From the NCBI RefSeq assembly GCF_002979975.1, contig NZ_PCQD01000002.1, positions 434,001 to 498,000 on the forward strand: a DNA stretch of 64,000 bases. The letters run 5' to 3'. Numbering within the stretch: position 1 is the first letter of the stretch; each line of letters starts with the position of its first letter. Position numbers and translations under genes: made by a program. The notes under the pieces are model-generated. The model saw only the letters and a program-made list of their open reading frames with translations. It made no database searches and was not told the origin of the DNA. Positions 15,484 through 38,535 of this stretch are shown here, piece after piece. Origin of the DNA: Pseudomonas sp. MYb185 (lineage in GTDB: Bacteria > Pseudomonadota > Gammaproteobacteria > Pseudomonadales > Pseudomonadaceae).

Positions 15484-17436
<1,953 letters not shown>

Positions 17437-18522: not shown

Positions 18523-19068
18523 ATGACACCAATCCCGAACCAGCATCACAGTCTGATTTCCCGCCTGGGCCGCATCATGCAGTTGGCCTGGGTACCCAGG
18601 GATTACGATGCCACCCTCCGCTACTGGACCGAGACCATGGGCGTAGGGCCGTTCTTTGAGCTGAACCACATCCAGGTAGACGCCTGCCATTACCGCGGTC
18701 AGCCATCCAATGTCGACTTCTCGGTCGCCATTGCCTACTGGGGCGAGATGCAGATCGAACTGGTTCGCCAACACAATGACGCTCCTTCCATCTACCAGAG
18801 CTGGTTGAAGCAGGGTCGTGAAGGTTTGCACCACATCTGTCTGATAGTAAACAGCATGACCGAAGCCCGGGCACTTTGCGCCGAGGCTGGCGCAGAGGTC
18901 ATGCAGGAAGTCTGGCTGCCCGGCGGTGGCGAAGCCATTTACGTTGATCTGGGTGGCCTTATGGTGGAGATGATCGACTTTCCGCAGGAGAGCCTGGCGG
19001 TGTTTGCCGATATGAAAGCCGCCGCTGACAGCTGGGACGGCAGCGAGCCCGTACGGGTCCTTGGCTGA
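18523..19068 (+). CDS. VOC/glyoxalase-family protein
   Basis: A 181-residue metalloenzyme-fold protein with two betaalphabetabetabeta halves. The first begins RIMQLAWVPRDYDATLRYW and the second begins LHHICLIVNSM, a layout shared with methylmalonyl-CoA epimerase-like and glyoxalase_4 proteins. Likely metal ligands are His and Glu residues in these strands. It opens the operon that contains the Lva-like trio, so an epimerase, isomerase or dehydratase acting on an acyl-CoA or oxygenated intermediate is plausible. The exact reaction is not deducible. Confidence 0.75.
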   Translation: MTPIPNQHHSLISRLGRIMQLAWVPRDYDATLRYWTETMGVGPFFELNHIQVDACHYRGQPSNVDFSVAIAYWGEMQIELVRQHNDAPSIYQSWLKQGREGLHHICLIVNSMTEARALCAEAGAEVMQEVWLPGGGEAIYVDLGGLMVEMIDFPQESLAVFADMKAAADSWDGSEPVRVLG

Positions 19069-19104: not shown

Positions 19105-20166
19105 ATGAACGCTGATACCCTTTGCCCCAGCGCGACCGTGGTCCCGCCTATGGTGGATCAGGCATTACCGGCCATTGCTGGGTTTCTGAATAGCCACTTC
19201 GGTGCCCAGCATACCCGGATTATCCAGGCCAACCGTCTGTCCGGTGGTGCAATCCAGGAAAACTGGCTGTTACAGGTCGAACATCAGGGCGGTAGCCGCC
19301 CTGGTCAGCAACGCTGGGTATTACGTACAGATGCCCCCTCAAGTGTGGCCGTCAGCATGACCCGCGCCCAGGAGTTCGCGGTACTGCGCTGCGCCTTCGA
19401 GGCTGGCGCCAGAGTGCCTGAACCGCTGGTACTGTGCTCAGACCAGCGGGTGCTGGGCCGCGAGTTCTTTATCATGCAGGCTCTGGAAGGCACCGCCTTC
19501 GGGCCAAAGCTGACCCGCGATGCAGTCAACGAAGAGCAGCGCCCTGCTCTGTGCCGAGAACTGGGCGCCAGCCTCGCCAGCCTGCACCGGATCACCCCAC
19601 CGCACCCGCAGCTGGATTTCCTGCCGGCTCCTGCGGCTGACCATGCGCAGCACTGCATTGCCACCTACCGCGCCTATCTGGATACCCTCAGTGAGGGCTT
19701 TCCGGCACTGGAATGGGGGCTGCGCTGGTGCGAACTGAACCGTCCGACGTCGCTGCCTCCGCGCCTGCTGCACCGGGATTACCGCACCGGCAACTATATG
19801 GTCGCCAACGGTCAGCTCAGCGGTATTCTCGATTGGGAGTTTGCCGGCTGGGGCGACCCTCGGGAAGATATCGGCTGGTTTACCGCCCGCTGCTGGCGCT
19901 TTGCCGGGCCCCAGCGTGAAGCCGGTGGCATAGGTGAACTGGAGGACTTTTTCGATGGCTACAACAGCGTCGCGGAACTGCAGATGGACAGGGCAGCACT
20001 GACCTACTGGCAGGTCATGGCTCACCTGCGCTGGGCGATCATTGCCCTGCAACAGGCCGAGCGCTACCTCAGCGGCGGCGAGGATTCGCTGGAGCTGGCC
20101 CTGACCGGGCGCATGCTGTCCGAACTGGAACAGGAAATTCTGCTGCTGACCGGAGCCACGCCATGA
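19105..20166 (+). CDS. APH-family kinase, LvaA-like (4-hydroxyacyl-CoA kinase candidate)
   Basis: A 353-residue aminoglycoside-phosphotransferase-fold kinase. The catalytic loop HRDYRTGN (H223-N230) has D225 as probable base, and the metal-binding ILDWEF has D243. It is followed, with a 4-bp overlap, by a DUF6285 gene and then by an acyl-CoA dehydrogenase. The same trio makes up LvaA-LvaB-LvaC of Pseudomonas levulinate catabolism, where the kinase phosphorylates 4-hydroxyvaleryl-CoA. By analogy it would phosphorylate a 4-hydroxyacyl-CoA. The fold and gene order support this; the chain length and substrate do not follow from sequence. Confidence 0.8.
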   Translation: MNADTLCPSATVVPPMVDQALPAIAGFLNSHFGAQHTRIIQANRLSGGAIQENWLLQVEHQGGSRPGQQRWVLRTDAPSSVAVSMTRAQEFAVLRCAFEAGARVPEPLVLCSDQRVLGREFFIMQALEGTAFGPKLTRDAVNEEQRPALCRELGASLASLHRITPPHPQLDFLPAPAADHAQHCIATYRAYLDTLSEGFPALEWGLRWCELNRPTSLPPRLLHRDYRTGNYMVANGQLSGILDWEFAGWGDPREDIGWFTARCWRFAGPQREAGGIGELEDFFDGYNSVAELQMDRAALTYWQVMAHLRWAIIALQQAERYLSGGEDSLELALTGRMLSELEQEILLLTGATP

Positions 20167-20516
20167 ATCGTCCCTGCGCCCCCGATCTACTGGTGACCGC
20201 CCGCCAACTGCTGCTGGACGAACTGCTGCCGGCCCTGCCCCGGGAGTTGCACTACCAGGCGCGAATGATCGCCAGTGCCATGATCACCGCCGCCCGGGAC
20301 CAGCAGTTGGGCGAGAGCTGCGCTACGCAAGAGCGCCAGCAGCTGCAGGCGTTACTGGACGGGGCGGACAATACCGAGCTGCCTGCCCTGCGCAGACAAC
20401 TGGCTGCTGCCATTCGCCTGGGGCAGCTCGACCACCACCCACAGTTGCACCAGAGTCTGCGACAGATCAACCGCAGCCAACTGGCCATCAATAACCCCAG
20501 AGCGGTGCGCGACTGA
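20163..20516 (+). CDS. DUF6285 protein, LvaB-like kinase partner
   Basis: A small 117-residue helical protein that starts inside the last codons of the kinase gene (ATGA overlap). This indicates translational coupling and a tight complex. Proteins of this family (DUF6285) accompany APH-like kinases, and LvaB is needed for LvaA activity in the levulinate pathway. It has no catalytic motif of its own that I can see. The sequence is rich in Leu, Gln and Arg and has no signal peptide. Confidence 0.75.
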   Translation: MNRPCAPDLLVTARQLLLDELLPALPRELHYQARMIASAMITAARDQQLGESCATQERQQLQALLDGADNTELPALRRQLAAAIRLGQLDHHPQLHQSLRQINRSQLAINNPRAVRD

Positions 20517-20543
20517 CGCGCCTGCGCCTACAGGAGAAGTACC

Positions 20544-21704
20544 ATGGATTTCAGCCTTGACCAGGAACTGCTGGAGCTGCAACAGCGCACCCGCGAGTTT
20601 ATCACCGAACAGGTCATCCCTCTGGAATTTGATAGCCGCCAGACACCCCACGGCCCCAGCGAGGAACTGCGCAATGAACTGGTCGAGCGGGCACGCAAGG
20701 TCGGCCTGCTGACCCCACATGCCTCCCGGGAATTGGGCGGTCTGGGTCTCAGCCACAGGGCCAAGGCGATTGTCTTCGAGGAAGCCGGCTACTCGCCACT
20801 GGGTCCGATTGCGCTGCATATCCACGCCCCTGACGAGGGCAACATCCACATGCTGGAAGCCATCGCCAACGAGGCGCAGAAGGATCGCTGGCTCAAGCCA
20901 ATGGTCGATGGCCGCATCCGCTCCTGTTTCGCCATGACCGAACCCAGCCCGGGTGCTGGCTCCGACCCCTCGATGCTGGCCACCACCGCAGTACGCGATG
21001 GTGACGATTACATCCTCAATGGTCGTAAATGGTTTATTACCGGCGCCACCGGTGCCAGCGTCGCCATCATCATGGCCCGCACCGAAGACGGCAACGCTAC
21101 CATGTTCCTCAGCGATACCGACCAGCCCGGCTTCAAGGTCGAACGCATGATGGATTCGCTGGACAGCTGCTTTACCGGCGGCCACGGCGTGGTGGATATC
21201 GAGAATCTGCGGGTTCCGGCGGAAAATGTGCTGGGCGAAGTCGGCAAGGGCTTCCGTTATGCCCAGGTACGCCTGGCCCCGGCGCGCCTGACCCACTGCA
21301 TGCGCTGGCTCGGTGCCGCCCGCCGCGCCCACGATATCGCCACCGAGTATGCCCGCACCCGCGAGTCCTTCGGTCGTCCGCTGGGTGAGCATCAGGGCGT
21401 CGGTTTCATGCTCGCGGATAATGAGCTGGACCTGCATACTACCCGCCTGGCAGTGTGGCATTGCGCCTGGGTACTGGATCAGGGTGAGCGTGGCAATCTC
21501 GAATCGAGCATGGCCAAGGTACTCAGTTCCGAGGCCATCTGGCGCGTGGTGGATCGCTCGGTACAGATTCTTGGCGGCCAGGGCGTCACCGGGGAGAAGA
21601 TCGTCGAACGCATCTTCCGGGACGTGCGTCCATTCCGTATCTACGACGGTCCCAGCGAAGTGCACCGCATGAGCATTGCCAGAAAACTGCTGGCCGGCAA
21701 GTAA
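20544..21704 (+). CDS. Acyl-CoA dehydrogenase, LvaC/ACAD10-11-like
   Basis: A 386-residue acyl-CoA dehydrogenase with the usual N-terminal, middle and C-terminal domains and FAD-binding FAMTEPSPGAGSDPS near residue 130. The C-terminal end carries YDGPSEVHR (Y367-R375). Where classical enzymes have a catalytic Glu (Y-E-G-T), this has Asp, the pattern of ACAD10/11 and LvaC. Those enzymes remove phosphate from a 4-phosphoacyl-CoA and shift the hydroxyl group rather than simply oxidising. AGGAGAAG precedes the ATG. It completes the Lva-like trio. Confidence 0.85.
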   Translation: MDFSLDQELLELQQRTREFITEQVIPLEFDSRQTPHGPSEELRNELVERARKVGLLTPHASRELGGLGLSHRAKAIVFEEAGYSPLGPIALHIHAPDEGNIHMLEAIANEAQKDRWLKPMVDGRIRSCFAMTEPSPGAGSDPSMLATTAVRDGDDYILNGRKWFITGATGASVAIIMARTEDGNATMFLSDTDQPGFKVERMMDSLDSCFTGGHGVVDIENLRVPAENVLGEVGKGFRYAQVRLAPARLTHCMRWLGAARRAHDIATEYARTRESFGRPLGEHQGVGFMLADNELDLHTTRLAVWHCAWVLDQGERGNLESSMAKVLSSEAIWRVVDRSVQILGGQGVTGEKIVERIFRDVRPFRIYDGPSEVHRMSIARKLLAGK

Positions 21705-21808: not shown

Positions 21809-22996
21809 ATGACACAACGTCAGATCTATGTTGTAGGAGCAGCCCGCACCGCCATTGGCAGCTTTGGCGGTAGCCTGAAAGATAAACCCCTGACCGAGAT
21901 CGCCACCACCGCGGTCAGTGCCGCCCTGACCCGCTCCGGGGTTGATCCTGAAGCGGTCGGCCATGTGGTCATGGGCAACGTGATTCCAACCGAACCCAGG
22001 GATGCCTATCTCAGCCGGGTAGCCGCCATGGACTCGGGTATTCCCAAGGAAACCCCGGCGTTCAACGTCAACCGCCTGTGCGGCTCGGGCTTGCAGGCCA
22101 TCATCTCCGCAGCCCAGTCGATCCTGCTGGGCGATACCGATATCGCCATTGGCGGCGGCGCGGAAAGCATGAGCCGTGGCCCCTTCATCATGCCGGCCAT
22201 GCGCTGGGGTGCGCGGCTGGGCGACGCCCAGGCAGTGGATTACATGAACGGCATCCTGCACGATCCCTGGCAGCGCATCCACATGGGTGTGACCGCCGAG
22301 AACGTCGCCAAACGCTACAACATCAGCCGCGAGGCCCAGGATGAACTGGCTCTGGAAAGCCAACGCCGCGCTGCCCGCGCCCGGGCCAAAGGCTATTTCA
22401 CCGAGCAGATAGTGCCGGTGGAAATCCGCACCCGCAAGGGCGTGATCATCTTCGATAGCGACGAGCATATCCGTGAGGATGTCAGCCTGGAACAACTGGC
22501 CGGCATGAAACCGGTATTCCAGCGCGACAACGGTAGCGTCACCCCCGGCAACGCCTCCGGCCTCAACGACGGCGCCGCCGCCCTGGTACTGGCCGAAGAA
22601 CAGGCCGTCAAACGGCACAACCTGACCCCCATGGCTCGCCTGGTCGGCTATGCCCACGCCGGTGTCGAACCAGAATACATGGGTATCGGCCCGATCCCCG
22701 CCACCCGTCTGGTGCTGGAACGTACCGGTCTGAGTCTGGCAGACATTGACCTGATCGAGGCCAACGAAGCCTTTGCCGCCCAAGCCTGCGCCGTGGTGCA
22801 GGAGCTGGGGCTGAACCCGGAGATCGTCAACCCCAATGGCTCGGGCATTTCCCTCGGTCACCCAGTAGGTGCCACCGGCGCAATCATCAGCACCAAAGCC
22901 ATCTACGAGCTGCAACGCACCGGCGGACGCTATGCGCTGGTCACCATGTGCATCGGTGGCGGTCAGGGTATCGCCGCCATTTTCGAACGTGTCTGA
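21809..22996 (+). CDS. Acetyl-CoA acetyltransferase / 3-ketoacyl-CoA thiolase
   Basis: A 395-residue canonical thiolase. The nucleophile Cys91 lies in RLCGSGLQ, and the C-terminal half has GHPVGATG and the second active-site cysteine in CIGGGQG. It would carry out thiolytic cleavage of 3-ketoacyl-CoA, releasing acetyl-CoA (or propionyl-CoA from odd chains). GAAGG precedes the ATG. It sits directly after an intrinsic terminator, so it may be made at lower levels than the Lva-like trio. Confidence 0.92.
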   Translation: MTQRQIYVVGAARTAIGSFGGSLKDKPLTEIATTAVSAALTRSGVDPEAVGHVVMGNVIPTEPRDAYLSRVAAMDSGIPKETPAFNVNRLCGSGLQAIISAAQSILLGDTDIAIGGGAESMSRGPFIMPAMRWGARLGDAQAVDYMNGILHDPWQRIHMGVTAENVAKRYNISREAQDELALESQRRAARARAKGYFTEQIVPVEIRTRKGVIIFDSDEHIREDVSLEQLAGMKPVFQRDNGSVTPGNASGLNDGAAALVLAEEQAVKRHNLTPMARLVGYAHAGVEPEYMGIGPIPATRLVLERTGLSLADIDLIEANEAFAAQACAVVQELGLNPEIVNPNGSGISLGHPVGATGAIISTKAIYELQRTGGRYALVTMCIGGGQGIAAIFERV

Positions 22997-23029: not shown

Positions 23030-23884
23030 ATGAGCATTCGTACCGTTGGCGTGATTGGCGCCGGTACCATGGGCAACGGCATCGCCCAGGTCTGCGCCGC
23101 AGCCGGCTTCCAGGTCACTCTGGTCGATATCAACGAGGCAGCACTGGAACGTGCTCTGCAGACCATCGATCGCAGCCTTGATCGGCTGGTACAGAAGGAA
23201 AAACTGGGTAGCGAAGACAAGCAGCAGGCGCTGGGCAATATCCGCACCACCACCGAGCTGGCGGCACTGGAATCCGCTGACCTGGTAATCGAGGCCGCTT
23301 CCGAAGCGGAACCGGTCAAACTGTCGCTGATCCGTCAAATCGATGAGATCGTCTCCGCGCAGGCAATCATCGCCACCAACACCTCCTCCATCTCCATCAC
23401 CCGTCTGGCGGCGGCCAGCAACAATCCGGAGCGGGTGATCGGTATGCACTTCTTCAACCCTGTGCCGGTCATGGCACTGGTCGAGCTGATTGGCGGTCTG
23501 CAGACCAACGAAGCCACTCGTCAGGCTGCCACCGAGTTTGTCAGTGACATCCACAAGACCGCCATCACTGTGCGCAACAGTGCCGGTTTTGCGGTCAACC
23601 GCATTCTGGTGCCGATGATCAACGAAGCCGTGTTCGTACTGCAGGAGGGGATCGCCAGTGCGGAGGATATCGACCTGGGCATGCGCCTGGGCTGCAGCCA
23701 TCCGATCGGTCCACTGGCGCTGGCCGACCTGATTGGCCTGGATACTCTGCTGGCGGTGATGGATGTGTTCTATACCAGCTTCAACGACAGCAAATACCGC
23801 CCTGCCCCGCTGCTGCGGGAAATGGTCGAAGCGGGCTACCTTGGTCGCAAGAGCGGTCAGGGCTTCTACCACTACCCGGCCTGA
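23030..23884 (+). CDS. 3-hydroxyacyl-CoA dehydrogenase (3-hydroxybutyryl-CoA type)
   Basis: A 284-residue NAD(P)-dependent enzyme that oxidises 3-hydroxyacyl-CoA to 3-ketoacyl-CoA. The N-terminal Rossmann motif is GAGTMGNGIAQ, followed by the catalytic region GMHFFNPVPVM and the C-terminal helical domain. It is single-function and of typical length. It lies between thiolase and enoyl-CoA hydratase genes with AGGAG-type ribosome sites, so the three form a complete late beta-oxidation set. Confidence 0.93.
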   Translation: MSIRTVGVIGAGTMGNGIAQVCAAAGFQVTLVDINEAALERALQTIDRSLDRLVQKEKLGSEDKQQALGNIRTTTELAALESADLVIEAASEAEPVKLSLIRQIDEIVSAQAIIATNTSSISITRLAAASNNPERVIGMHFFNPVPVMALVELIGGLQTNEATRQAATEFVSDIHKTAITVRNSAGFAVNRILVPMINEAVFVLQEGIASAEDIDLGMRLGCSHPIGPLALADLIGLDTLLAVMDVFYTSFNDSKYRPAPLLREMVEAGYLGRKSGQGFYHYPA

Positions 23885-23928: not shown

Positions 23929-24690
23929 ATGTCTGATGCGCCCTTGACCCTGGAGCGTTCCGGCAAACTGCTGCACCTGCAATTCAACCGCCCGGCCTCG
24001 CTGAATGCCATCGACAGCGCCATGGCCGAGGCCTTCCTCGGTGCAGTCACCGAGGCTGTGGCGGATGATGCAATTCGCGTCATCATCCTCAGCGGCGCCG
24101 GACGCTCGTTCATGGCCGGAGGGGATATCGCCCAGTTCAGCCGTGATCCAGGCAGCATTCCGGACAGCCTAATCGAACCGATGAACAAGGCCATCCTGCT
24201 GCTCAGTGGTAGCGACAAGCTGGTGCTGGGTAGCGTGCAGGGGCCAGTCGCCGGTGCCGGCATGAGCCTGGCACTGGTCTGCGACCTGCTGATTGCCGCG
24301 GACAATACCCGCTTCAGCTTTGCCTATACTGCGCTGGCCGCCAGTGGCGATCTGGGTATCAGCTGGAGCCTGCCGCGCCTGCTGGGCCTGCGTAACGCCA
24401 TGGGCGTGGCGCTGCTGGGCGACAGCATCAAGGCCGATGAAGCGCAACGTCTCGGGCTGGTCAATCGGGTAGTAGCCGCAGAACAGCTGGCAGAACAAAC
24501 GCTGAACCTGGCCAACCAGCTGGCGGAACTACCGGCACTGGCCAGCGCCAGCATCAAGCGACTGATGCAGGCCGCAGTGCAACAGGACCTGGGCAGCCAG
24601 CTGGCCGCCGAGAAACAGGCCTTCAGCCAATGCATCGAGCAACCGGAGTTCCACACCGCCGTTGCCGGATTCCTGGCCAAACGCAAGTAG
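23929..24690 (+). CDS. Enoyl-CoA hydratase/isomerase family protein (PaaG-like)
   Basis: A 253-residue crotonase-fold protein. The oxyanion-hole segments are AGGDIAQF near residue 65 and GPVAGAGMSLAL near residue 107. Where a true hydratase has the second catalytic Glu, this has D141 in SGDLGISWSLPR. That matches the PDGG-x-SW-x-LPR pattern of PaaG-type isomerases more than that of hydratases. It is therefore likely to shift a double bond or open a strained ring in a CoA ester, with hydratase as the alternative. Last gene of the plus-strand operon. Confidence 0.82.
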   Translation: MSDAPLTLERSGKLLHLQFNRPASLNAIDSAMAEAFLGAVTEAVADDAIRVIILSGAGRSFMAGGDIAQFSRDPGSIPDSLIEPMNKAILLLSGSDKLVLGSVQGPVAGAGMSLALVCDLLIAADNTRFSFAYTALAASGDLGISWSLPRLLGLRNAMGVALLGDSIKADEAQRLGLVNRVVAAEQLAEQTLNLANQLAELPALASASIKRLMQAAVQQDLGSQLAAEKQAFSQCIEQPEFHTAVAGFLAKRK

Positions 24691-24793: not shown

Positions 24794-25684
24794 CTACCCT
24801 CCGCTTCCAGCCGCCCGCCTTGCCCTCGGCTGCCACTGGTGCAGCAACAGTCCCAGGCCAATCAGCAGTGCGCCAAACCACACACCGGGCGGCAATTGCT
24901 CGGCATTGAACAGCTTGCCCACCACCAGCGCCAGCAGGGGTGTAATCACCAGAATCAACGCCACCGATGCCGAACTCATATGGCGGATGATGTAGTAGTA
25001 CATGGCAAAGCCCACTACCGAGCCGAGCACGCCCAGATAGGCAATCGACAGGCTGGCGCGCAGGCTCAGTTGCGCTGGCCAGCCTGCATCATCGAAGCAC
25101 CACAGCAGCAGGAACAGCGGCGCCGCCACCAGCAGAGAACCAGTGGTGGTAGCCATGGGATGGCTATCATCGGCAATCACCTTCATACCGACCAGTGAAG
25201 CGGAGTTGCACACCACGCCGAGCAGCAGGGCCACGACGCCGGCGGCAAAGCCCGCATGCAAGCTCAGACCCTGATCGAGAAACACCACGCCCAATCCAGC
25301 CAGGCCAAGCAGCATGCCCGATAGTCGGGCCGGACTGAAGCTGTTCTCCCCCAGCCACCAGGCCGCCAGCGCACTGGTCATCAAGGGCGACAATCCAAAG
25401 ATCACCGACATCAAGCCTGATTCAATACGGGTAGAAGCCCAATAGACACAGCTCATGGCAAGAAAGATTCCCAGACCCGCGCAGCAATAGCTGCGCAGTG
25501 CCTGGGCATGCAAGGGTAGAGGAATACGCCAGAGCACCAGTACCAGCAGCGCACAGATCAGCGCCATGAGCATGCGCAGCATGGCGGCAAAGCTGAAGCT
25601 GCTATCCAGCGTCCCCCACTGAATCGCCAGCGGGGTGGTGGCCCAGATGGCGACTACCCCAAGATAGGCCAGTGACACCGGCAT
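24794..25684 (-). CDS. EamA/DMT-family membrane transporter
   Basis: A 296-residue inner-membrane protein with ten predicted hydrophobic segments in two EamA repeats, typical of drug/metabolite transporters. It starts 7 bp after the reductase gene ends, so it is the last gene of the operon led by the DUF35/thiolase pair. A role in export or import of a pathway intermediate is plausible. The family is too broad to name the substrate. Confidence 0.85.
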   Translation of the reverse strand: MPVSLAYLGVVAIWATTPLAIQWGTLDSSFSFAAMLRMLMALICALLVLVLWRIPLPLHAQALRSYCCAGLGIFLAMSCVYWASTRIESGLMSVIFGLSPLMTSALAAWWLGENSFSPARLSGMLLGLAGLGVVFLDQGLSLHAGFAAGVVALLLGVVCNSASLVGMKVIADDSHPMATTTGSLLVAAPLFLLLWCFDDAGWPAQLSLRASLSIAYLGVLGSVVGFAMYYYIIRHMSSASVALILVITPLLALVVGKLFNAEQLPPGVWFGALLIGLGLLLHQWQPRARRAAGSGG

Positions 25685-25691
25685 GGGCAGA

Positions 25692-26660
25692 TCAGAGATC
25701 CAGAACCAGGCGTTTACCCGCTACGCCACGGGAACAGCACGGGGTAAACCAGCCTTCCTCGTTACGCTCCTCATCGCTCAATACCTGATCCCGGTGATGC
25801 ACCTCACCTTCCAGTACCCGGGTAATGCAGGCACCGCAGATGCCCTGCTCGCAGGAGGTCATGATGCCCACACCCGCCTGGTCCAGCACTGAAACGATGG
25901 TGTCATCTTCACCAATAGTGAATACCTGCCCGGTGCTGGCTACCTGTACCTCGAAACTTTCATCTTCGCTGGTATCGATTTCCTTGGCGCTGAAGAACTC
26001 GTAGTGGATACGCTCATCATCCCAGCCGGCAGCTCTGGCGCTGGCCAGAACGAAGTCGATAAAACCACCCGGCCCGCAGACATACAGATGGGTATCATCC
26101 GACTGCTGTTGCAGCACCGCAGCCAGATCCAGCTTTTGCTCGTCAGCACCGTCATCAAAATGCAGCTGCACCCGGTCGGCATAGGCCGCGTTCTGGATCT
26201 GCTCACGGAACGCCATGCGCTCCGGGCTGCGGGCGCAATAGTGCATGCTGAACTCGGCATCAGTACGCGCCAGCCGCTCGGCCATGCACAGGATGGGGGT
26301 CACGCCAATACCACCAGCCAGCAGCAGCGAGCGCTTCGCGCTGGGCACCAGCGGAAACAGGTTACGAGGCTGACTGATACGGATTTCCTGACCTTCCTGC
26401 AGCTCATCATGCACGGCAATCGAGCCGCCCCGGGAAGCCGGGTCACGCAGCACGCCAATCACGTAACGGTGCTGTTCCGATGAGTCATTGCACAGTGAAT
26501 ACTGGCGCAACAGGCCGGGACGTACTTCCACATCGATATGCGAGCCGGCACTGAAGGGGGGCAGGCTGCTGCCATCCAGTGCGGCCAATTCCAGGGTGAC
26601 AATGTCGCGAGCTGCCGAGGCCTTGCGTGCGATTCTTACTTTGAGTGTGGTGGTATCCAT
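25692..26660 (-). CDS. Phthalate-dioxygenase-reductase-type flavoprotein with 2Fe-2S
   Basis: A 322-residue single-chain reductase. The N-terminal flavin domain has RQYSL near residue 53, the NAD domain has AGGIGVTP near residue 114, and the C-terminal plant-type ferredoxin domain has CxxxxCxxC (in CEQGICGAC) plus a distant Cys near residue 308. This is the layout of PDR/VanB reductases, which pass electrons from NAD(P)H to a Rieske oxygenase. It is the only such reductase in the window and no separate ferredoxin gene is visible. It may therefore serve all three Rieske alpha subunits here. Confidence 0.92.
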   Translation of the reverse strand: MDTTTLKVRIARKASAARDIVTLELAALDGSSLPPFSAGSHIDVEVRPGLLRQYSLCNDSSEQHRYVIGVLRDPASRGGSIAVHDELQEGQEIRISQPRNLFPLVPSAKRSLLLAGGIGVTPILCMAERLARTDAEFSMHYCARSPERMAFREQIQNAAYADRVQLHFDDGADEQKLDLAAVLQQQSDDTHLYVCGPGGFIDFVLASARAAGWDDERIHYEFFSAKEIDTSEDESFEVQVASTGQVFTIGEDDTIVSVLDQAGVGIMTSCEQGICGACITRVLEGEVHHRDQVLSDEERNEEGWFTPCCSRGVAGKRLVLDL

Positions 26661-26671
26661 GATTTCATCCG

Positions 26672-28318
26672 TTATTGTGCGACGGCGGTCTGCTGTTCGA
26701 GGCGTGCGCGGATATCGGCTCGCAACTGATCCTTACGTACCTTGCCGGAGGCGGTACGCGGAAAGTCGTCCAGCACCACCAACTGCTCGGGGATCTTCTG
26801 CCGTGCCACGCCGCTGTCACTGACCATCTCGACCATCTGCACCAGCGACAGCTGCTGCCCGTCACGCAGTATCACGTAGGCACAGAGGGTTTCGCCCAGA
26901 CGCATATGCGGCATGGATACTACCGCAGCCTCATGCACCTGGGGCAACTGGTGCAGGATATCCTCCACTTCCTTGGCGCTGATCTTCTCACCGCCACGGT
27001 TGATCAGATCCTTCTTGCGCCCGGTAATGACAATCGCATTGTCGCGAGTCAGGCGGCCCAGATCGCCAGTGGCAAAATAGCCCTCAGCATCGAAGCTGCC
27101 GGCATTCTGCTGCGCATCGGCATAACCGAGGAACATGGCGGCGCCCTTGATCATCAACTCTCCTTCCGCGCCGGCGGGGACTTCGTGGCCCGCGTCATCC
27201 ACCACCTTGACCTGGTAACCATGCACCTCGCCATCCGTGGTCGCAGCCAGTTCCAGCTGCTCCTCACCGACAAAGCCCAGGGTCACCAGCGGCACCTCGC
27301 TGGAGCCGAATACGCGGAACGCACGGCAGCGCTCGAATACCTCAGCGGCACGGTAGATCAGTGCCGGCGGTACTTCGGCGCCACCACAGGCAAAGGCCTG
27401 CAAGGACGGCAGCCGACGCCCGTGCTGTTCAGCCTGGGTCAACAGTTCATGCAAAAACGGCGTAGCGCCGAGACTCACACTGACCTGTTCGCGATCAATG
27501 ATTTCCAATGCTTCGCGGGCATCCCAGCGATCCATGAACACCGTGCGGCTGGGCAGGTAGAAGGGCAACTCCAGACCGCTGAGCCCGGTTACATGGGTCA
27601 CCGGCGAGGCCATCAAAAGGGTACCGCCCTGCCCCCGGGTCCAGTGCTCGAAACCACGCTTGAGGCGCAACGGGCCGGTATTGTGTGAGTGCAGCACAGC
27701 CTTGGGCCGCCCCGTGGTGCCGGAGGTATAGAGCACCAGCTTGACTCCATTGGCATCCACCACCGGCAGGCTCACCGCCGGCTCGGCTTCAGCCACCAGC
27801 GCCGCATAATCCAGCGCCTGGCTCTGCTCACCCCGTACACAGCAGAGCAAGTGCAGCTGCGGCAGCTCGCCCTGCAGACGCTGCATCATCGCGGCAAAAT
27901 CAAAACCACGGTACTGCTGCGGGAAGAAAGCCGCCTTGACCCTGGCGTCGGCCAGCATGAAGCTGACTTCGGCATCCCGGTAGATAGGCACAATGGGCAC
28001 AATCACCAGGCCCAGCAGGCTGGCGGCCAGGTCGATGACAGCGGACTCACGCCAGTTGGGCAGTTGGAAACTGATGGCATCCCCGGCGGCCAACCCTCGA
28101 CGTTGCAGGGCACCGGCCAGCAGTCTGGCTTCCTGCAACAGTTCACTGACGGTGCAGGATTGCCCCTCAAATACATGGGTAATGCGCTGCGGATCATGGG
28201 CAGCTATCTCCGCGGCCATTTCGGCAATGGTCCTGTTCAGCCACTCGCCGCTGGCCTGGCCCTGCTCCAGTCGCTGCTGGCTCAATTCAATGTTCCAGCC
28301 ACTGATATCTCTATTCAT
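26672..28318 (-). CDS. Acyl-CoA synthetase (AMP-forming)
   Basis: A 548-residue adenylate-forming ligase with ATP loop YTSGTTGRPKAV near residue 180, GDLGRL, the hinge GRKKDLINRGGEKIS near residue 435, and the C-terminal catalytic lysine in ASGKVRKD. Its closest look-alikes are cyclohexanecarboxylate-CoA and medium-chain ligases. It is placed next to a dehydrogenase pair and would activate a carboxylic acid side chain or ring acid of the substrate. I use the ATG at 28318, with GGGG upstream, instead of a TTG at 28339. Confidence 0.88.
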   Translation of the reverse strand: MNRDISGWNIELSQQRLEQGQASGEWLNRTIAEMAAEIAAHDPQRITHVFEGQSCTVSELLQEARLLAGALQRRGLAAGDAISFQLPNWRESAVIDLAASLLGLVIVPIVPIYRDAEVSFMLADARVKAAFFPQQYRGFDFAAMMQRLQGELPQLHLLCCVRGEQSQALDYAALVAEAEPAVSLPVVDANGVKLVLYTSGTTGRPKAVLHSHNTGPLRLKRGFEHWTRGQGGTLLMASPVTHVTGLSGLELPFYLPSRTVFMDRWDAREALEIIDREQVSVSLGATPFLHELLTQAEQHGRRLPSLQAFACGGAEVPPALIYRAAEVFERCRAFRVFGSSEVPLVTLGFVGEEQLELAATTDGEVHGYQVKVVDDAGHEVPAGAEGELMIKGAAMFLGYADAQQNAGSFDAEGYFATGDLGRLTRDNAIVITGRKKDLINRGGEKISAKEVEDILHQLPQVHEAAVVSMPHMRLGETLCAYVILRDGQQLSLVQMVEMVSDSGVARQKIPEQLVVLDDFPRTASGKVRKDQLRADIRARLEQQTAVAQ

Positions 28319-28341
28319 TATTGTTACCCCACTGGACAATC

Positions 28342-29430
28342 TCAGGCTGCCGTCAGACTCTGTTCCACAAAACGCAGGAAGTGTTTATCACGACCACCCA
28401 ACAGGCTGTTGAGCAGCATCACCCGGCGGAAGTAGTGGCTGACATCCAGCTCCTCGGTGATCCCCAGACCGCCGTGCAGCTGCACCGCCTCGTTGGCTAC
28501 CTTGCGCGCCGCATCACTGATATAGCTGCGCGCTCCACTGACCAGTCGTGCACGCTCTGCTGCGGGCCCGGTCAATGCCTGTTGCGCAGCCTGGGTCAAC
28601 GCGTGGGTTTCCTGCTGCAACAGGTACAGATCGGCCATGCGGTGCTGCAACGCCTGATTCACCGCCAGTGGCCTGCCGAACTGTTTACGCATCTTGAGGT
28701 ACTCATTGGTGGTGTGCAGCAGAGCATCGATCATGCCGCAGGCTTCCGCGCACAGGGCAACGTTGGCCTCATCCAGCAACAGTTGCAGGTTGTCCGCTAC
28801 GCTCAGGCCGTTATTCGGCGTCGCCAGCAGCTCGACCTGGGCATTATCAAAACTGATACTGGCAGCGCCACGACCATCCAGCAGGCGCGCAGCAGTGCGC
28901 TGTACCCGGGACTGGTCAGTATTGACCAGGCATAGATGCAGTTGGCCCTGGGCATCCTGCGCCGCCACCAGCAGACCATTCGCCGCATCGCCATGCATGA
29001 CCAACGGAATGCGCCCGCTCAGACGGTTATCTTCCAGCTGGCATTGATGAGCATGCTCCACAGCACAGCTCAGCACCACTTCACCTGAGGCGAGCCCGGC
29101 CAGCAGCCGCTCACGTTGCTCACCATTGCCCAGCCGTGCCACCAGCCGGGTAGCCAGCACGGCACTCATCAGAAAGGGTTCCTGCAGCAGTGCCTTGCCG
29201 GCCACCTCCATCAACGCGCCAACTACCGCCGCATCGCCATCCAGACCGTCATTCTCGGTTGGCAGGCACAGGGAGAGAAAGCCGAATTCGGCCAGCTCCG
29301 CCCAGATCTGCTGACTGAAGCTGCCCGGCTCCCGCATACGCTCCAGCCGCTGCAGGAAGCTGTAGTTATCTTCCATATAGCGCTCCAGGCTGTTGCGGAG
29401 CATGCCAATGGTTTCAATATCGGTTGTCAT
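28342..29430 (-). CDS. Acyl-CoA dehydrogenase, small-subunit type
   Basis: A 362-residue divergent acyl-CoA dehydrogenase, similar in style to small subunits such as PimD or the partner chains of heteromeric steroid dehydrogenases. The helical segments and the C-terminal QLHGGLGITEELDVSHYFRR are present. The FAD-binding middle region is poorly conserved. It overlaps the large-subunit gene by 4 bp (ATGA), which points to a 1:1 complex. The catalytic acid cannot be assigned with confidence; E227 in CAEACGM is a candidate. Confidence 0.82.
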   Translation of the reverse strand: MTTDIETIGMLRNSLERYMEDNYSFLQRLERMREPGSFSQQIWAELAEFGFLSLCLPTENDGLDGDAAVVGALMEVAGKALLQEPFLMSAVLATRLVARLGNGEQRERLLAGLASGEVVLSCAVEHAHQCQLEDNRLSGRIPLVMHGDAANGLLVAAQDAQGQLHLCLVNTDQSRVQRTAARLLDGRGAASISFDNAQVELLATPNNGLSVADNLQLLLDEANVALCAEACGMIDALLHTTNEYLKMRKQFGRPLAVNQALQHRMADLYLLQQETHALTQAAQQALTGPAAERARLVSGARSYISDAARKVANEAVQLHGGLGITEELDVSHYFRRVMLLNSLLGGRDKHFLRFVEQSLTAA

Positions 29431-30623
29431 AGTCCCAGTACCACCTTGGCCAGAATATTGCGCTGAACTTCCGAGGAACCACCAAAGATGGTGTTCGCCC
29501 GGTTATACAGATGCTCCTTGAGAATGCCGCCGACATCATCTGCGCCCAGCAGCGGCAGGCCTGGCGTGGCATGCAGGGCTTCGGTATCGAATACCATGCC
29601 CGCCTCGGCCAGCGCATCGACCAGGGTGTCACTGACCTGCTGATACAGCTCGGTGCCACGGATCTTGATCAGTGACGCCTCGCCCCCGTTATCGCGCTTC
29701 TCGTCCATTGCCAGCACACCAGCGTAAGACGCCTGCTCCAGCGCCAGGAAGCGCAGCTCGAACTCACCGATACGATTGCGCATCAGCGGCTGCTCCAGCA
29801 GCGGGCGACCGTCGACCAGGGTTTCGGCGGCGTGCTTTTTCAGTCGATCCAGCACATGCCAGGCCTGGCCGACTATGGCCCCGGCAGTGCGCTCGTTCTG
29901 CAACAGGAACTTGGCATAGGTCCAGCCGGCGCCCTCTTCACCAACCAGGTTCTCGGCGGGAACGATCACATCCTCCAGCCAGACCTCGTTGACATGGTGA
30001 TAGCCGTCCATGGTGTGAATCGGCTTGACCGTCACCCCGGGGCTACGCATATCGATCAGCAGGAAGGAAATACCACTCTGCGGCTTGCCGTCGGTCCCGG
30101 TGCGCACCAGACAGAACAGCCAGTCCGCCCACTGAGCGTAGGTGGTCCAGACCTTCTGGCCGTTGACCACGTAATGGTCACCATTGCGTACTGCCCGGGT
30201 GCGCAGCCCGGCCAGATCCGAACCGGCACCGGGCTCTGAATAACCCTGGGCCCAGAACTCCTCGGTTTTGACGATACCCGGCAGGAAACGTTGTTTCTGC
30301 TGTTCGCTGCCGAAGCTATAGATGACCGGGCCAACGTACTTGACCCCAAAGGGGATGATCCAAGGACAGCCCAGCCGCGCCAGCTCATCCTCGAACACAA
30401 AGCGCTCCAGCGATGACCATTGCTGGCCGCCATATTGCTCAGGCCAATGCCCCACTGCCCAGCCCTTGCGCTCCAGCAGTTGCATCCATTGCAGATAGTC
30501 CTGGCGATCCAGAACCTGATGGCGATGGGATTTGGCCTTGAGTTCAGCCGTCATCTCATGTGCCACAAAGTGCCGAACAGCCTCGCGCAGCTGCTGCGCC
30601 TTTTCCAACAGTTGTGTACTCAT
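29427..30623 (-). CDS. Acyl-CoA dehydrogenase, large-subunit type
   Basis: A 398-residue acyl-CoA dehydrogenase with the FAD-binding GYSEPGAGSDLAGL near residue 128 and C-terminal TIFGGSSEVQRNI. It resembles PimC-like large subunits and the FadE-type chains that act on bulky CoA esters. The gene is immediately before the small-subunit gene. Together they probably form a heteromeric enzyme that introduces a double bond next to the CoA thioester of a ring-bearing or branched acid. Confidence 0.86.
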   Translation of the reverse strand: MSTQLLEKAQQLREAVRHFVAHEMTAELKAKSHRHQVLDRQDYLQWMQLLERKGWAVGHWPEQYGGQQWSSLERFVFEDELARLGCPWIIPFGVKYVGPVIYSFGSEQQKQRFLPGIVKTEEFWAQGYSEPGAGSDLAGLRTRAVRNGDHYVVNGQKVWTTYAQWADWLFCLVRTGTDGKPQSGISFLLIDMRSPGVTVKPIHTMDGYHHVNEVWLEDVIVPAENLVGEEGAGWTYAKFLLQNERTAGAIVGQAWHVLDRLKKHAAETLVDGRPLLEQPLMRNRIGEFELRFLALEQASYAGVLAMDEKRDNGGEASLIKIRGTELYQQVSDTLVDALAEAGMVFDTEALHATPGLPLLGADDVGGILKEHLYNRANTIFGGSSEVQRNILAKVVLGL

Positions 30624-30682: not shown

Positions 30683-32077
30683 CTACTTGTCGAGCCCCAG
30701 GTACTTGTCCAGCGTCAGGTGGTGATGACGAATACGGCTCTCCTGGTAGCTGGCCAGGCTGACGGTGCCCTTCTTCGAGGCCTTCAGACCCTTGGTCATG
30801 GCATCGAGGTTACTCATGTCCTGATCGAATACCGGGCCCAATGCACCCAGTTCGGGAGCCTTGGAGAAGTCCAGATCATCAGGCAGCTGATTCAGCTTGG
30901 CACCTGGCGGGCAGGCTTCACCCTCCTTGTAGCGCCCCAGCAGCCAGACATCGAACAGGCAACTCTCATGGTTGTCACCATCAGGAATGGCGCGATACAC
31001 AATATTGCCGAAGTAACCCGCCCAGACCTGGGTGTTGGGGAAGATTGAATACAGAATGGCGTCCTGCAATTCGGCCAAGGTGGCTTGGGACAGGTCATCA
31101 CCGGAAGCCTCGGAGAATATCTGGCGGTTCAGCTCACCGATATACTCCCGGGTGGTCATGCCCTCGGGCAGGACGTGCTTGCTGGCATCGGAATCGGCCA
31201 TACGCCCGGACTCCTCCAGGATATCGTGCAGAATCAGCGCCTCGCTCACATCACTGAGGTTGGAGCTGGTCACCGCCATTGGTGTGACGCTGCGGCTGAT
31301 ATTGTCGCCATACATGTCGTACTGGCTGTCCACATCCCCGGTAAAGGTCATGATCTGCGGGTGGGTGGCGCGGGTATGCATGGACTCCATGAAGGCTTCC
31401 TGGGCTACCTTCCAGTTGCAGGCCATACGGCGCTGCACATGGGCAATGGATACCGAGCGATCCATGCTGTAGTCCTTGAAGTGCTCGGGCAGTACATCCA
31501 GGTGCTCGTTCAGCGGAGCGGCATCCAGATCCGGGTTGATGAATACGAAACCAGCCCAGGTATCCACCTTGACCTGCGGCAGTTTCAACTCGCAGGGGGA
31601 CATATGCTTGAAGTCCCAGACGGTGGGCATGGACTTGAACTCACCCTGTAAGTCCCAGGTAAAGCCATGGTAGGGGCAGCGCAGCTGGTTGACCGCGCCA
31701 CCACTCATGCGCAGCGCACGCCCCCGGTGCAGACAGGAGTTATGGAAGCCACGGATCACATTGTCCTGGCCACGCATGACGATGATCGACTGATTGACGA
31801 TATCGTATACCACATGATCACCCGGCTTCTGGATATCCTCGACCCGGCACACCATCTGCCATGCTTTAGTCCACAGTTTCTCGGCTTCCAGCTCATGGAA
31901 CCAGCGGGAGCTATAACGCTCTACCGACAGGTCTTCATCGGTAAAGCCCGGATGATTGGACTGCAGCCGATCAGGTACCGGCACCTTCTCCTGCTCGAGC
32001 AACTGCTGGAACAGATTCGGGTTACCGACATCCTCCGGCGGCAACACAGTGAACTTGGCTTGTTTGAGATTGGTCAT
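30683..32077 (-). CDS. Rieske non-heme iron oxygenase alpha subunit 1
   Basis: A 464-residue ring-hydroxylating-type oxygenase. The Rieske cluster ligands are C115, H117, C134 and H137. The mononuclear iron site has H234 and H239, preceded by E231 at the position of the bridging acidic residue (usually Asp). The long C-terminal region has extra helices. It would insert oxygen into the substrate using the reductase two dehydrogenase genes and one ligase gene downstream. No beta subunit gene is adjacent, suggesting an alpha-only enzyme. Product unknown. Confidence 0.9.
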   Translation of the reverse strand: MTNLKQAKFTVLPPEDVGNPNLFQQLLEQEKVPVPDRLQSNHPGFTDEDLSVERYSSRWFHELEAEKLWTKAWQMVCRVEDIQKPGDHVVYDIVNQSIIVMRGQDNVIRGFHNSCLHRGRALRMSGGAVNQLRCPYHGFTWDLQGEFKSMPTVWDFKHMSPCELKLPQVKVDTWAGFVFINPDLDAAPLNEHLDVLPEHFKDYSMDRSVSIAHVQRRMACNWKVAQEAFMESMHTRATHPQIMTFTGDVDSQYDMYGDNISRSVTPMAVTSSNLSDVSEALILHDILEESGRMADSDASKHVLPEGMTTREYIGELNRQIFSEASGDDLSQATLAELQDAILYSIFPNTQVWAGYFGNIVYRAIPDGDNHESCLFDVWLLGRYKEGEACPPGAKLNQLPDDLDFSKAPELGALGPVFDQDMSNLDAMTKGLKASKKGTVSLASYQESRIRHHHLTLDKYLGLDK

Positions 32078-32115: not shown

Positions 32116-33267
32116 TTATGGCGCTTCCAGAATGGTGACGGCACTGACACCAGGCGCACCGTATACATGGGTATAACCAAGGCGTGGGGCACCGGGAACC
32201 TGGCGCTGTCCAGCCTGTTGACGCAGCTGCTGGCAGACTTCCACTACCTGCCGCAGTCCGGAGGCGCCCACCGGCTCACCGTTGGCCAGACATCCGCCAT
32301 CGGTGTTCACTGGCAAGCGCCCACCAATATCCGTAGCTCCCTCGCGCAGCAACCACTCCTGTTCGCCATGCTCACAGAAGCCGTTTTCCGCCAGGTGAAT
32401 GATCTCCGAGCCGCTGTCGGTATCCTGCAACTGGATGACATCGATATCCTCCGGACCCACTCCCGCCTCCTCGTAAGCCGCACGGGATGCGGTTACTGTG
32501 GGGGCCGGAGCCATCTCGGCAGCCAATGCGGGACTGAATACCTCGAAGGAGCCGTGGTGACGGGTACGCATCACCGCAGCCCGTACCAGCACCGGTCGGT
32601 CGGTATAACGATGCGCCTCACTGGCACGGCACAGCACCAGGGCGGCACCGCCTTCAGCAGGATTACAGAACATGTACTTGCGCAGCGGCAGATTGACCGG
32701 CATCGACTGGGCAATTTCTTCGTAGCTCAGCTCCCGTTGCCGCCAGGCATGGGGAGTAATGGCGCCATTACGGAAGGCGCGTTGAGCGACCCGCACCAGC
32801 GTTTCCTCGGAAATGCCATGCTCATGCATATAACGCTGGGTCTTCAGGGCAAAGAACTGAGTGGTGAGCATCAGGCCGGATTCGCCGTACCAATCCTCCA
32901 GTCCCCAGTCCGCCGGCTTCGGATTGAAAGCACCCCGGGGATGCTTGTCAAAACCCACCGCGACACCAATATCCGCCGTCCCCGCGCGCAGGGCCGAGAC
33001 TACGCTGGCCAACGCACTGCCGCCGGTGGCACAACCATTGGCCACATTGATAAAGGGCAGGCCGGTCAGGCCCAGATGGTTGGACAGAGCATCGGCATTA
33101 CCTGCGTCCTGGCTGCCGCCGTAGGCTATCCCCACCTGATCCCAGCTGACATTGGCATCCTGCAGAGCCTGACGCACGGCATAGGCTCCCTGCGCCTGGC
33201 CGGACATACCGTCAGTCCGACCGAAGGGGTGCATACCGATACCGATGATTGCAATCTGTTCCATCAT
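32116..33267 (-). CDS. Thiolase-fold protein (lipid-transfer/SCP2-thiolase-like), altered active site
   Basis: A 383-residue thiolase-superfamily protein. The N-terminal cysteine is kept (C79 in VANGCATGG). The usual GHPxGxSG His is replaced by Glu (GEPVGASG, residues 330-337), and the final CxG motif reads YGAPG. It is therefore unlikely to be a normal thiolase. Such proteins pair with DUF35 partners and, in bile-acid and sterol side-chain degradation, act as retro-aldolases. It overlaps the DUF35 gene by 4 bp. Substrate not known. Confidence 0.82.
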   Translation of the reverse strand: MMEQIAIIGIGMHPFGRTDGMSGQAQGAYAVRQALQDANVSWDQVGIAYGGSQDAGNADALSNHLGLTGLPFINVANGCATGGSALASVVSALRAGTADIGVAVGFDKHPRGAFNPKPADWGLEDWYGESGLMLTTQFFALKTQRYMHEHGISEETLVRVAQRAFRNGAITPHAWRQRELSYEEIAQSMPVNLPLRKYMFCNPAEGGAALVLCRASEAHRYTDRPVLVRAAVMRTRHHGSFEVFSPALAAEMAPAPTVTASRAAYEEAGVGPEDIDVIQLQDTDSGSEIIHLAENGFCEHGEQEWLLREGATDIGGRLPVNTDGGCLANGEPVGASGLRQVVEVCQQLRQQAGQRQVPGAPRLGYTHVYGAPGVSAVTILEAP

Positions 33268-33719
33268 TGTTTCTCCTGGGCCGCAGGACCGGCGGCAGGT
33301 GCAAAGGCAAAGGTACGCAGCAAGTGGCCCTCTTTCTGGCCGTAATCGACCTCTACCAGTTGCATGGGCATGCCGATGTGCAGCTGTTGCGGATCAGCAC
33401 AGGTCAGACGACTCTCCACCTTGAGGCCACAGGACAGCTGCACATAACCCACCCCATAGGGCTGGAAGTCCTCACTGGACTCGCCGCTGTTATAGGGCGA
33501 CTTGGGAAGAAACCCCTGCACCGTCCATGACCACAGCTCACCCCGGTTGCCCAGCACACATTCGCCGAGTTCAGTTCCACAACAACGAGTGCAACTGCTG
33601 GTCGCCGGAAAATAATGCTCTCCGCAGGACTGGCAGCGGCTGCCAAGCAATACCGGCCCCGCCTCGCTCCGACTCAGCAGATGCCCGGTCACATGCTGCA
33701 TAGATAGACTACCGCTCAT
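33264..33719 (-). CDS. DUF35 OB-fold zinc-ribbon partner of thiolase-fold protein
   Basis: A 151-residue protein. The N-terminal zinc ribbon has two CxxC-like pairs (CQSCGEHYFPATSSCTRCCG). The OB-fold C-terminal part fits DUF35. Members bind CoA esters and form complexes with thiolase-fold aldolases or with synthases. It is translationally coupled to the thiolase-fold gene and leads the operon 33,719-24,794. The ATG is preceded by AGGAT. Confidence 0.85.
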   Translation of the reverse strand: MSGSLSMQHVTGHLLSRSEAGPVLLGSRCQSCGEHYFPATSSCTRCCGTELGECVLGNRGELWSWTVQGFLPKSPYNSGESSEDFQPYGVGYVQLSCGLKVESRLTCADPQQLHIGMPMQLVEVDYGQKEGHLLRTFAFAPAAGPAAQEKQ

Positions 33720-34608: not shown

Positions 34609-35385
34609 TCACGTCAGTTTCACCGAATGCCCGGCATCAACGGTAATCACGCTGCCGCTCATGTAGGTAGAGGCCGAGCTGGCCAATAGCAGCAACGGAC
34701 CGTTCAGCTCTTCATGTCGCCCCAGGCGCTGGATCGGCAACGCCGCAATCTCCCGCTTTCCAGCTTCCGATTCGTAGAACGGATTGGTCATTTCACTCGG
34801 GAAATAACCTGGAGCCAACGCATTGACACGAATACCGTAGGGCATCAGATCCAGCGCCATATACTGGGTCATATGGATCACTCCGGCCTTGGTGGTACCG
34901 TAGTTGATAAATTGCGGGCGGGCCAGGTGGCCGAGAATCGAGGCAATATTGATGATGCTGCCCGGCTTGCCTGCAGCAATCAGGCGCTTGGCCATTTCCT
35001 GGGCTACATAGAAAGGCCCGGACAGGTTGGCATCCACCAACGAAGTCCACTGTTCGCGGGTCATTTCCTCGAACGCAGTGGGGTTGGACAAACCCGCATT
35101 ATTGATCAGCACATCCACCGGGCCACATTGCTGCTGGATGCAGGCAAAGCCGTCCTTGATACTATCCGGGTCGGTTACGTCCATGCTCAGAGCCAGCGCC
35201 TGCCCCCCCTGATCACGAATACCTCGCGCTACCGACTCAACCGGCTCCAGCCGGCGGCCAACGCACACCACGGTAGCGCCAGCGCGTGACAGCACCCCGG
35301 CAAAGTGCTTACCCAGACCACTGCCGGCACCGGTTACCAATGCTACTCGCCCCGCAAGAGAAAACTGTTCAACAATATCTTTCAT
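34609..35385 (-). CDS. Short-chain dehydrogenase/reductase (SDR 1)
   Basis: A 258-residue classical SDR. The cofactor motif TGAGSGLG starts near residue 19, followed by NNAG, the catalytic Ser in INIASILG and YxxxK (YGTTK). It is intact and would interconvert a hydroxyl and a ketone with NAD(P). It is the last gene of the 2-oxo acid dehydrogenase operon, so it may act on a product of that step. No signal peptide. Confidence 0.88.
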   Translation of the reverse strand: MKDIVEQFSLAGRVALVTGAGSGLGKHFAGVLSRAGATVVCVGRRLEPVESVARGIRDQGGQALALSMDVTDPDSIKDGFACIQQQCGPVDVLINNAGLSNPTAFEEMTREQWTSLVDANLSGPFYVAQEMAKRLIAAGKPGSIINIASILGHLARPQFINYGTTKAGVIHMTQYMALDLMPYGIRVNALAPGYFPSEMTNPFYESEAGKREIAALPIQRLGRHEELNGPLLLLASSASTYMSGSVITVDAGHSVKLT

Positions 35386-36173: not shown

Positions 36174-36403
36174 CAGACCAGCTCCCCGATCACGGTACCT
36201 ACATCGTAGGTTTCGCCCGCTTCCTTCAGGATGCGCAGGGTACCGTCAGCCGGCGCTTCGATCTCCTGCACAGACTTCTCGCTTTCCAGTGCATACAGAA
36301 TATCGCCCTTGCTCACTGTGGCCCCATCAGCCACCAACCATTCGGTCAGCAACGCCTCGTTTACAGAAAAGCCCAGCTTGGGAAGAAGAATTTCAGTAGC
36401 CAT
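36173..36403 (-). CDS. Stand-alone lipoyl domain protein
   Basis: A 76-residue protein consisting of a single lipoyl/biotinyl domain. The lipoylated lysine lies in the ESEKSVQEI turn, near residue 43, and the flanking beta strands are complete. In most complexes this domain is fused to E2. Here it lies between the E1-beta and E2-core genes and must act as a mobile acyl carrier between them. It depends on lipoate ligation or LipB/LipA supplied elsewhere in the genome. Confidence 0.87.
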   Translation of the reverse strand: MATEILLPKLGFSVNEALLTEWLVADGATVSKGDILYALESEKSVQEIEAPADGTLRILKEAGETYDVGTVIGELV

Positions 36404-36424
36404 AAGATCATTCCATTCTGTTTT

Positions 36425-38403: not shown

Positions 38404-38454
38404 GGTTACCTCGCATGGTGCACCTCTGATTATTGTTGACTCACCTTGCTCGAT

Positions 38455-38478
38455 TAAAACCGACAAGGTTGTTTTTAT
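38455..38478. promoter_or_regulatory. Shared palindromic operator, site 3
   Basis: TAAAAC (38455-38460), 10 bp, GTTTTTAT (38471-38478). It is 51 bp upstream of the E1 alpha start, in the gap after the VOC gene. Confidence 0.62.
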
Positions 38479-38535
38479 TGATTCTAGCCAGACTGAATTC
38501 AAACAGCAAGCTGTTATTATTCATTCTACCCTCTC

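Follow-up and report, generated by a model that had tools for sequence, protein, structure and literature searches.

An LvaABC module beside a catabolic gene cluster in Pseudomonas sp. MYb185 probably serves a pathway separate from levulinate use

We analysed a 64,000-nucleotide stretch of the genome of Pseudomonas sp. MYb185 (assembly GCF_002979975.1, contig NZ_PCQD01000002.1, positions 434,001 to 498,000), referred to here as the window. At positions 19105–21704 it carries three genes which, judged from their sequences, are a genuine LvaABC module, with orthologs of LvaA, LvaB and LvaC. We consider this module, with a probability of about 0.65, to be the final entry point to beta-oxidation in a catabolic pathway that is still uncharacterised and is fed by a neighbouring gene cluster. 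An earlier note on this DNA had proposed a pathway separate from lva which delivers a 4-hydroxyacyl-CoA to beta-oxidation, and this is supported by the operon in which the module lies, by synteny in Zoogloea and by an identical distribution of module and cluster within the genus.

Identity of the LvaABC module

The reference operon was that of P. putida KH-21-134 (locus L028), found by a search of one genome per species. It has the gene order LvaR, LvaA, LvaB, LvaC, LvaD, LvaE and SSF symporter; the names were assigned by order and family, and agree with the description of the KT2440 operon (PMC6692424). The window shares the LvaA-LvaB-LvaC order, exactly as the earlier note had placed it, with the DUF6285 open reading frame (ORF) directly following the kinase ORF at a 4 bp overlap. 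Identities to P. putida KH-21-134 were 53% for LvaA, 48% for LvaB and 76% for LvaC, far above chance, while LvaA showed 63% identity to the P. citronellolis-type protein and LvaC 78% to that of P. citronellolis. The stretch QVRLAPARLTHCMRWLGAARRAHDIA is unbroken in both the window and the P. putida LvaC, and the stretch FRIYDGPSEVHRMS is also identical.

The Lva-like function on 4-hydroxyacyl-CoAs which the note had assigned to the trio is strongly supported by this orthology and by predicted active-site residues. LvaA retains Asp225, Asn230, DWE from position 243 and the motif HRDYRTGN, and aligns with the kinase domain of ACAD11, where the catalytic Asp is kept. In LvaC the phosphate-site motif R-x7-HCMR reads VRLAPARLTHCMR, and the catalytic Asp of a YDGP motif replaces Glu, as had been noticed before; the C-terminal motif reads FRIYDGPSEVHR. 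In mouse ACAD11 the conserved residues are R626, the HCMR motif and D753 (PMC12440821), and their counterparts in the window LvaC are Arg243, His251, Arg254 and the catalytic Asp368. R-x7-HCMR was present in all 85 members of the LvaC tree and absent from the two other acyl-CoA dehydrogenases (ACADs) of the window; three paralogs at a greater distance carry it too, as does another gene of the same genome (RLGPGRVHHCMR, ADGP). As the motif marks the whole ACAD10/11 group, the identity of LvaC itself rests on the tree. There, the window protein falls inside the Pseudomonas LvaC clade (support 100/98), beside the P. citronellolis-type loci (97/80), and the more distant ACAD10/11-like paralogs are placed outside it. 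The kinase tree agrees with the LvaC tree (wider group 96/89). Homologs of LvaC at about 71–73% identity, with neither LvaA nor DUF6285 in the fetched flanks, were seen in Caballeronia, Pseudorhodoferax, Variovorax, Massilia and other hosts (L055, L060-L064, L066-L069, L071, L074-L078 and L081).

The partnership of DUF6285 with a kinase is clear. In an order-wide sample, DUF6285 was detected in 71 of 392 genomes, and it directly followed an APH kinase in all 30 fetched loci, 18 of which have the two in a single ORF. These natural fusions are L118, L120, L123 and 15 further loci, and Pfam finds both domains in L123. The kinases of the 30 loci are about 30% identical to that of the window and may, at that distance, act on different substrates. 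The AF2 model of the window LvaB is all-helical with a pLDDT of 94, and a Foldseek search with it gave no significant match among solved structures. The model of the fused protein was only moderate (pLDDT 72) and matched APH-fold kinases, including 25-hydroxy steroid kinase (25-HSK). A literature search on DUF6285 found nothing. The lva locus of P. citronellolis LMG 18378 has a DUF6285 (LvaB) gene at L019:8884-9264 (Pfam 1.4e-17); for the lva cluster of P. citronellolis LA18T, LvaB was said not to be found (PMC6692424). The natural fusions, together with the high-confidence LvaB model, make the role of this unexplained subunit directly testable.

The operon, the adjoining cluster and their distribution

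The module belongs to a seven-gene operon on the forward strand, VOC-LvaA-LvaB-LvaC-BktB-HBD-isomerase, whose intergenic distances range from −4 to 104 bp (Table 1). Next to it, a cluster on the reverse strand runs from 24794 to about 38502 and encodes an EamA transporter, a reductase, a ligase, two ACADs, a Rieske oxygenase, an SCP-x thiolase with its OB-fold partner, TetR, a short-chain dehydrogenase/reductase (SDR), E2, E1 beta and E1 alpha. Operon and cluster are both syntenic in P. profundi, and most of both, including BktB, HBD and the crotonase-family gene (ECH), is found in Zoogloea. In this beta-proteobacterium, Zoogloea oleivorans, the cluster lies on one contig (G579:C44:120682-148944) with LvaA, DUF6285 and LvaC, and identities to the window are 81% for BktB, 68% for HBD, 54% for ECH, 81% for the thiolase, 72% for the Rieske oxygenase and 71% for the SDR. 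Of 37 genomes of the genus, 5 have LvaC, and precisely these 5 also have the cluster thiolase; neither gene is found alone (Fisher 2e-6, uncorrected for shared ancestry). At a strict threshold, the thiolase was detected in only 2 of 399 sampled Pseudomonadota genomes, one being the genome studied here.

The module and the cluster seem not to share a single history in these two lineages. The window LvaA is 50% identical to the Zoogloea LvaA versus 63% to the P. citronellolis type, and in the LvaA and LvaC trees the proteins from Zoogloea branch apart, together with those of other proteobacteria. The cluster SDR is much closer to its Zoogloea counterpart than to anything in P. putida. Since the window trio groups with Pseudomonas lva and that of Zoogloea elsewhere, the trio seems to have joined the cluster separately or to have been replaced; going by these trees, separate entry of LvaABC in two lineages, or replacement in one, are likely the simplest readings. 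We tentatively suggest, at somewhat less than even odds, that one cluster spread horizontally between Halopseudomonas-like and Zoogloea bacteria took up LvaABC on two or more occasions from different lva lineages, and that the module there would clear a 4-hydroxyl arising as a larger compound, probably a cyclic or branched one, is broken down. As a looser parallel, three Rhodococcus plasmids have cluster-thiolase homologs in the vicinity of an APH-family kinase and an Asp-type ACAD, with RLGGGRIHHAMR in two of the three.

Table 1. Genes of the operon and of the adjoining cluster in the window
Feature	Position	Strand	Evidence
VOC-family protein (Glyoxalase_4, methylmalonyl-CoA-epimerase-like), first gene of the operon	18523..19068	+	Pfam PF13669 2.1e-15
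LvaA ortholog, APH-fold 4-hydroxyacyl-CoA kinase (predicted)	19105..20166	+	353 aa; Pfam APH 2e-40
LvaB ortholog, DUF6285, small all-helical, probable kinase partner subunit	20163..20516	+	117 aa; Pfam PF19802 3.8e-19
LvaC ortholog, ACAD10/11-like 4-phosphoacyl-CoA-processing flavoenzyme (predicted)	20544..21704	+	386 aa; full set of Acyl-CoA_dh domains
BktB-type beta-ketothiolase	21809..22996	+	NCBIfam PRK09051, 700 bits against a cut-off of 565
3-Hydroxybutyryl-CoA-dehydrogenase-type 3-hydroxyacyl-CoA dehydrogenase (HBD)	23030..23884	+	NCBIfam PRK05808, 447 bits against a cut-off of 408
Crotonase-family enzyme	23929..24690	+	Pfam ECH_1 7.5e-49; NCBIfam nearest oxepin_alt/PaaG, none above cut-off
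EamA transporter, cluster gene closest to the operon	24794..25684	-	Pfam; synteny
Ferredoxin/NAD reductase, probably serving a Rieske oxygenase	25692..26660	-	Pfam Fer2, NAD_binding_1; 65% in Zoogloea
Acyl-CoA ligase, medium-chain type	26672..28339	-	Pfam/NCBIfam; 66% in Zoogloea
Acyl-CoA dehydrogenase, small-subunit (PimD-like)	28342..29430	-	Family searches, synteny
Acyl-CoA dehydrogenase, large-subunit (PimC-like)	29427..30623	-	Family searches, synteny
Rieske oxygenase alpha subunit	30683..32077	-	Pfam; 72% in Zoogloea
SCP-x thiolase / Ltp2-aldolase-like enzyme	32116..33267	-	Family searches; 81% in Zoogloea
OB-fold (ChsH2/DUF35-like) thiolase partner	33264..33719	-	Pfam PF01796 2.3e-14
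SDR, LvaD sister clade, candidate 4-oxoacyl-CoA reductase	34609..35385	-	46% to LvaD; tree
E2 acyltransferase catalytic domain, E1 beta, E1 alpha (2-oxoacid-dehydrogenase-type complex), co-conserved	35418..38502	-	Family searches, synteny

The VOC gene keeps its position in P. profundi (76%) and has a 33% homolog in Zoogloea. The active-site loop of the crotonase reads ASGDLGISW, from which we take the enzyme to be probably a PaaG-like enoyl-CoA isomerase and not a hydratase. The families of BktB and HBD suggest short chains (C4–C6), for example 3-ketovaleryl-CoA yielding propionyl-CoA and acetyl-CoA. Farther upstream of the operon, a gene of the acetoacetate-CoA ligase family (15313–17436, 967 bits), with its start likely downstream of the listed GTG, adjoins an AraC regulator; the two were rejected as part of the module, as they are kept in a near relative (G145) and not in P. 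profundi.

In the cluster, the SCP-x protein keeps the thiolase N-terminal Cys at its aligned position (NGCATGG), and its C-terminal His and Cys motifs are altered; given the N-terminal Cys position, it could be a thiolase and not an aldolase. The E2 gene (35418–36173), beside E1 alpha and beta, encodes the catalytic domain only, with no lipoyl domain. The window also holds Rieske oxygenases, SDRs, enone reductases and a KstD-like flavoprotein, a mix that would be in keeping with a steroid-like substrate or a cyclic terpenoid. A literature search on the cluster found nothing.

The proposed route and its alternatives

We propose that the ligase, the two ACADs, the Rieske oxygenase and the SCP-x thiolase/OB-fold pair would produce a short-chain 4-oxo- or 4-hydroxyacyl-CoA, the former most likely being reduced to the latter by the cluster SDR. 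LvaA and LvaB would then phosphorylate the 4-hydroxyl with ATP, and LvaC, with its FAD, Asp368 and the phosphate-site Arg243, His251 and Arg254, would eliminate the phosphate to give the enoyl-CoA and, in part, the 3-hydroxyacyl-CoA. The isomerase, the 3-hydroxyacyl-CoA dehydrogenase and BktB would complete the oxidation, a C5 unit ending as propionyl-CoA and acetyl-CoA. We infer every catalytic step, the C4–C6 length and the role of the SDR; orthology, residues, operon, synteny and co-occurrence were read from the sequences.

The SDR lies 13 kb from the trio and has 71–72% identity to its counterpart in the Zoogloea cluster, 79% in P. profundi and 46% to the nearest P. putida protein. In the SDR tree it branches as the sister of a group made up of LvaD and another SDR of this genome (98/95 for the whole), and by this position it is a reasonable candidate for 4-oxoacyl-CoA reduction. 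A conserved sister of LvaD thus points to a 4-oxoacyl-CoA precursor, levulinate-like, instead of a lactone. If the pathway does not start from free levulinate, LvaE would not be needed.

Several points weigh against the proposed route. Operon and cluster lie on opposite strands and could be regulated, and function, separately. The five genomes with the trio may represent one acquisition, in which case the co-occurrence amounts to very few events. The SDR is not a member of the LvaD clade in the strict sense and might catalyse a different step of the pathway. In addition, the genome has a second ACAD10/11-like gene, with no adjoining LvaA-like kinase, and some 4-phosphoacyl-CoA capacity may therefore exist without the trio.

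The best surviving alternative, which we regard as unlikely, is that the operon simply serves levulinate or 4-hydroxyvalerate (or gamma-valerolactone) use and has lost lvaD and lvaE, generic ligases and SDRs substituting for these and the adjoining cluster being unrelated. The grouping of the trio with Pseudomonas lva in the LvaC and LvaA trees would fit, as would the dispensability of lvaE in KT2440 (PMC6692424) and the presence elsewhere in the genome of an LvaD-like SDR (52%, C23) and an LvaE-like ligase (55%). However, trio and cluster thiolase are never apart within the genus, and in Zoogloea the cluster is accompanied in synteny by BktB, HBD and ECH, which lva operons lack. The earlier note was correct that LvaD and LvaE are not adjacent to the trio. 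LvaR is likewise missing from the operon, and neither LvaR nor the lva symporter was found in the neighbourhood; Pseudomonas lva loci carry a sigma54-type LvaR homolog divergently upstream, where the window has a Cache-domain protein. No LvaE or true LvaD ortholog was found in the genome, the best LvaD-like SDRs falling outside the LvaD clade. The cluster ligase, with 30% identity to LvaE, is not LvaE. The 55% protein (G000:C12:518843) was rejected as the missing LvaE, since it has an 82% ortholog in P. putida besides the real LvaE of that species and belongs to the genus core.

The gene of this LvaE-like protein, about 60 kb downstream of the trio on the same contig, lies with a permease and a metallo-beta-lactamase (MBL)-fold hydrolase. 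The note had suggested a lactone as the source of the 4-hydroxyacyl-CoA, and such a route, in which the ring of a gamma-lactone is opened by a lactonase (e.g., the MBL-fold hydrolase) and the resulting 4-hydroxy acid is taken on by the LvaE-like ligase and the trio, gains from the arrangement in P. profundi, where ligase, permease and hydrolase immediately precede the trio operon; in P. saliphila the LvaE-like gene is also near the trio. Nevertheless, the LvaE-like gene is a genus-core paralog, present in 22 of 37 genomes, mostly without the trio (5 of 37). We do not count the block in support of a lactone route because of this distribution, and on the same ground rejected its hydrolase as the pathway lactonase. 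An MBL fold by itself is no proof of a lactonase, and no recognisable lactonase gene was found in the operon or the conserved cluster. The lactone proposal therefore fails to find support, and we hold it to be improbable.

Slightly less probable still is that the kinase, in the manner of 25-HSK, has a different alcohol as its substrate, for example a tertiary one of a steroid or terpenoid, with a different enzyme eliminating. A kinase which phosphorylates a hydroxyl before ATP-dependent dehydration is known (PMC8449060), and Foldseek puts 25-HSK near a related APH-DUF6285 fusion model, but the window kinase shows 53–63% identity to LvaA proteins along almost its whole length, matches the APH-like 25-HSK chain 9fsg only at 6e-05 over half its length, and is accompanied by LvaB and by an LvaC bearing the 4-phosphate motif.

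Comparison with known systems

Phosphorylative removal of a 4-hydroxyl is known mainly from levulinate use in bacteria and from mammalian ACAD10/11. Co-conservation of the LvaABC module with a catabolic cluster in different bacterial classes would show that it is a general answer to 4-hydroxy groups that block catabolism, and offers a handle on what that cluster degrades. Repeated recruitment into a shared cluster, if true, would make this a natural pathway of phosphorylative 4-hydroxyl removal unrelated to levulinate.

With lvaABCDE(FG) of P. putida (Rand et al. 2017, via PMC6692424 and PMC11342911) the window shares the LvaABC orthologs, their order and the overlapping A-B frames. In contrast, it has no LvaR, LvaD, LvaE or symporter, and has VOC upstream, BktB, HBD and the isomerase downstream, and the Rieske/ACAD/SCP-x thiolase cluster around. 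The lva loci of P. citronellolis (LA18T, PMC6692424; LMG 18378, L019) hold some of the nearest relatives of the window LvaA and LvaC; they have a histidine phosphatase between LvaB and LvaC, LvaD, LvaE2 and LvaR, none of which is in the window operon. A histidine phosphatase (PF00300) stands in this position in many lva loci (e.g., L008:9251-9970 and L023:9265-9978), and one is also present in the Zoogloea cluster (G579:C44:128721-129377).

Mammalian ACAD10 and ACAD11 (PMC12440821, PMC11342911; PDB 8v3u, 8v3v, 2wbi) have the kinase and ACAD chemistry, R-x7-HCMR and the catalytic Asp in common with the window, which uses separate polypeptides and an extra LvaB; the sequences are distant. Identity of LvaC to ACAD10/11 was given as 56–62% (PMC11342911), and the similarity seen here looks lower, for the window and the P. 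putida LvaC alike. Clusters for bile-acid and steroid side chains with Sal/Ltp2 aldolases (PMC8399759) also bring together a ligase, heteromeric ACADs and an SCP-x/OB-fold pair; here, by contrast, no MaoC hydratase was seen, LvaABC is added, and the N-terminal Cys position absent in Sal/Ltp2 is kept in the SCP-x protein. The occurrence of this cluster of a marine Pseudomonas-type bacterium in the distant Zoogloea suggests that the chemistry of the module is reused for another compound; the module is known already, and it is its context that is new.

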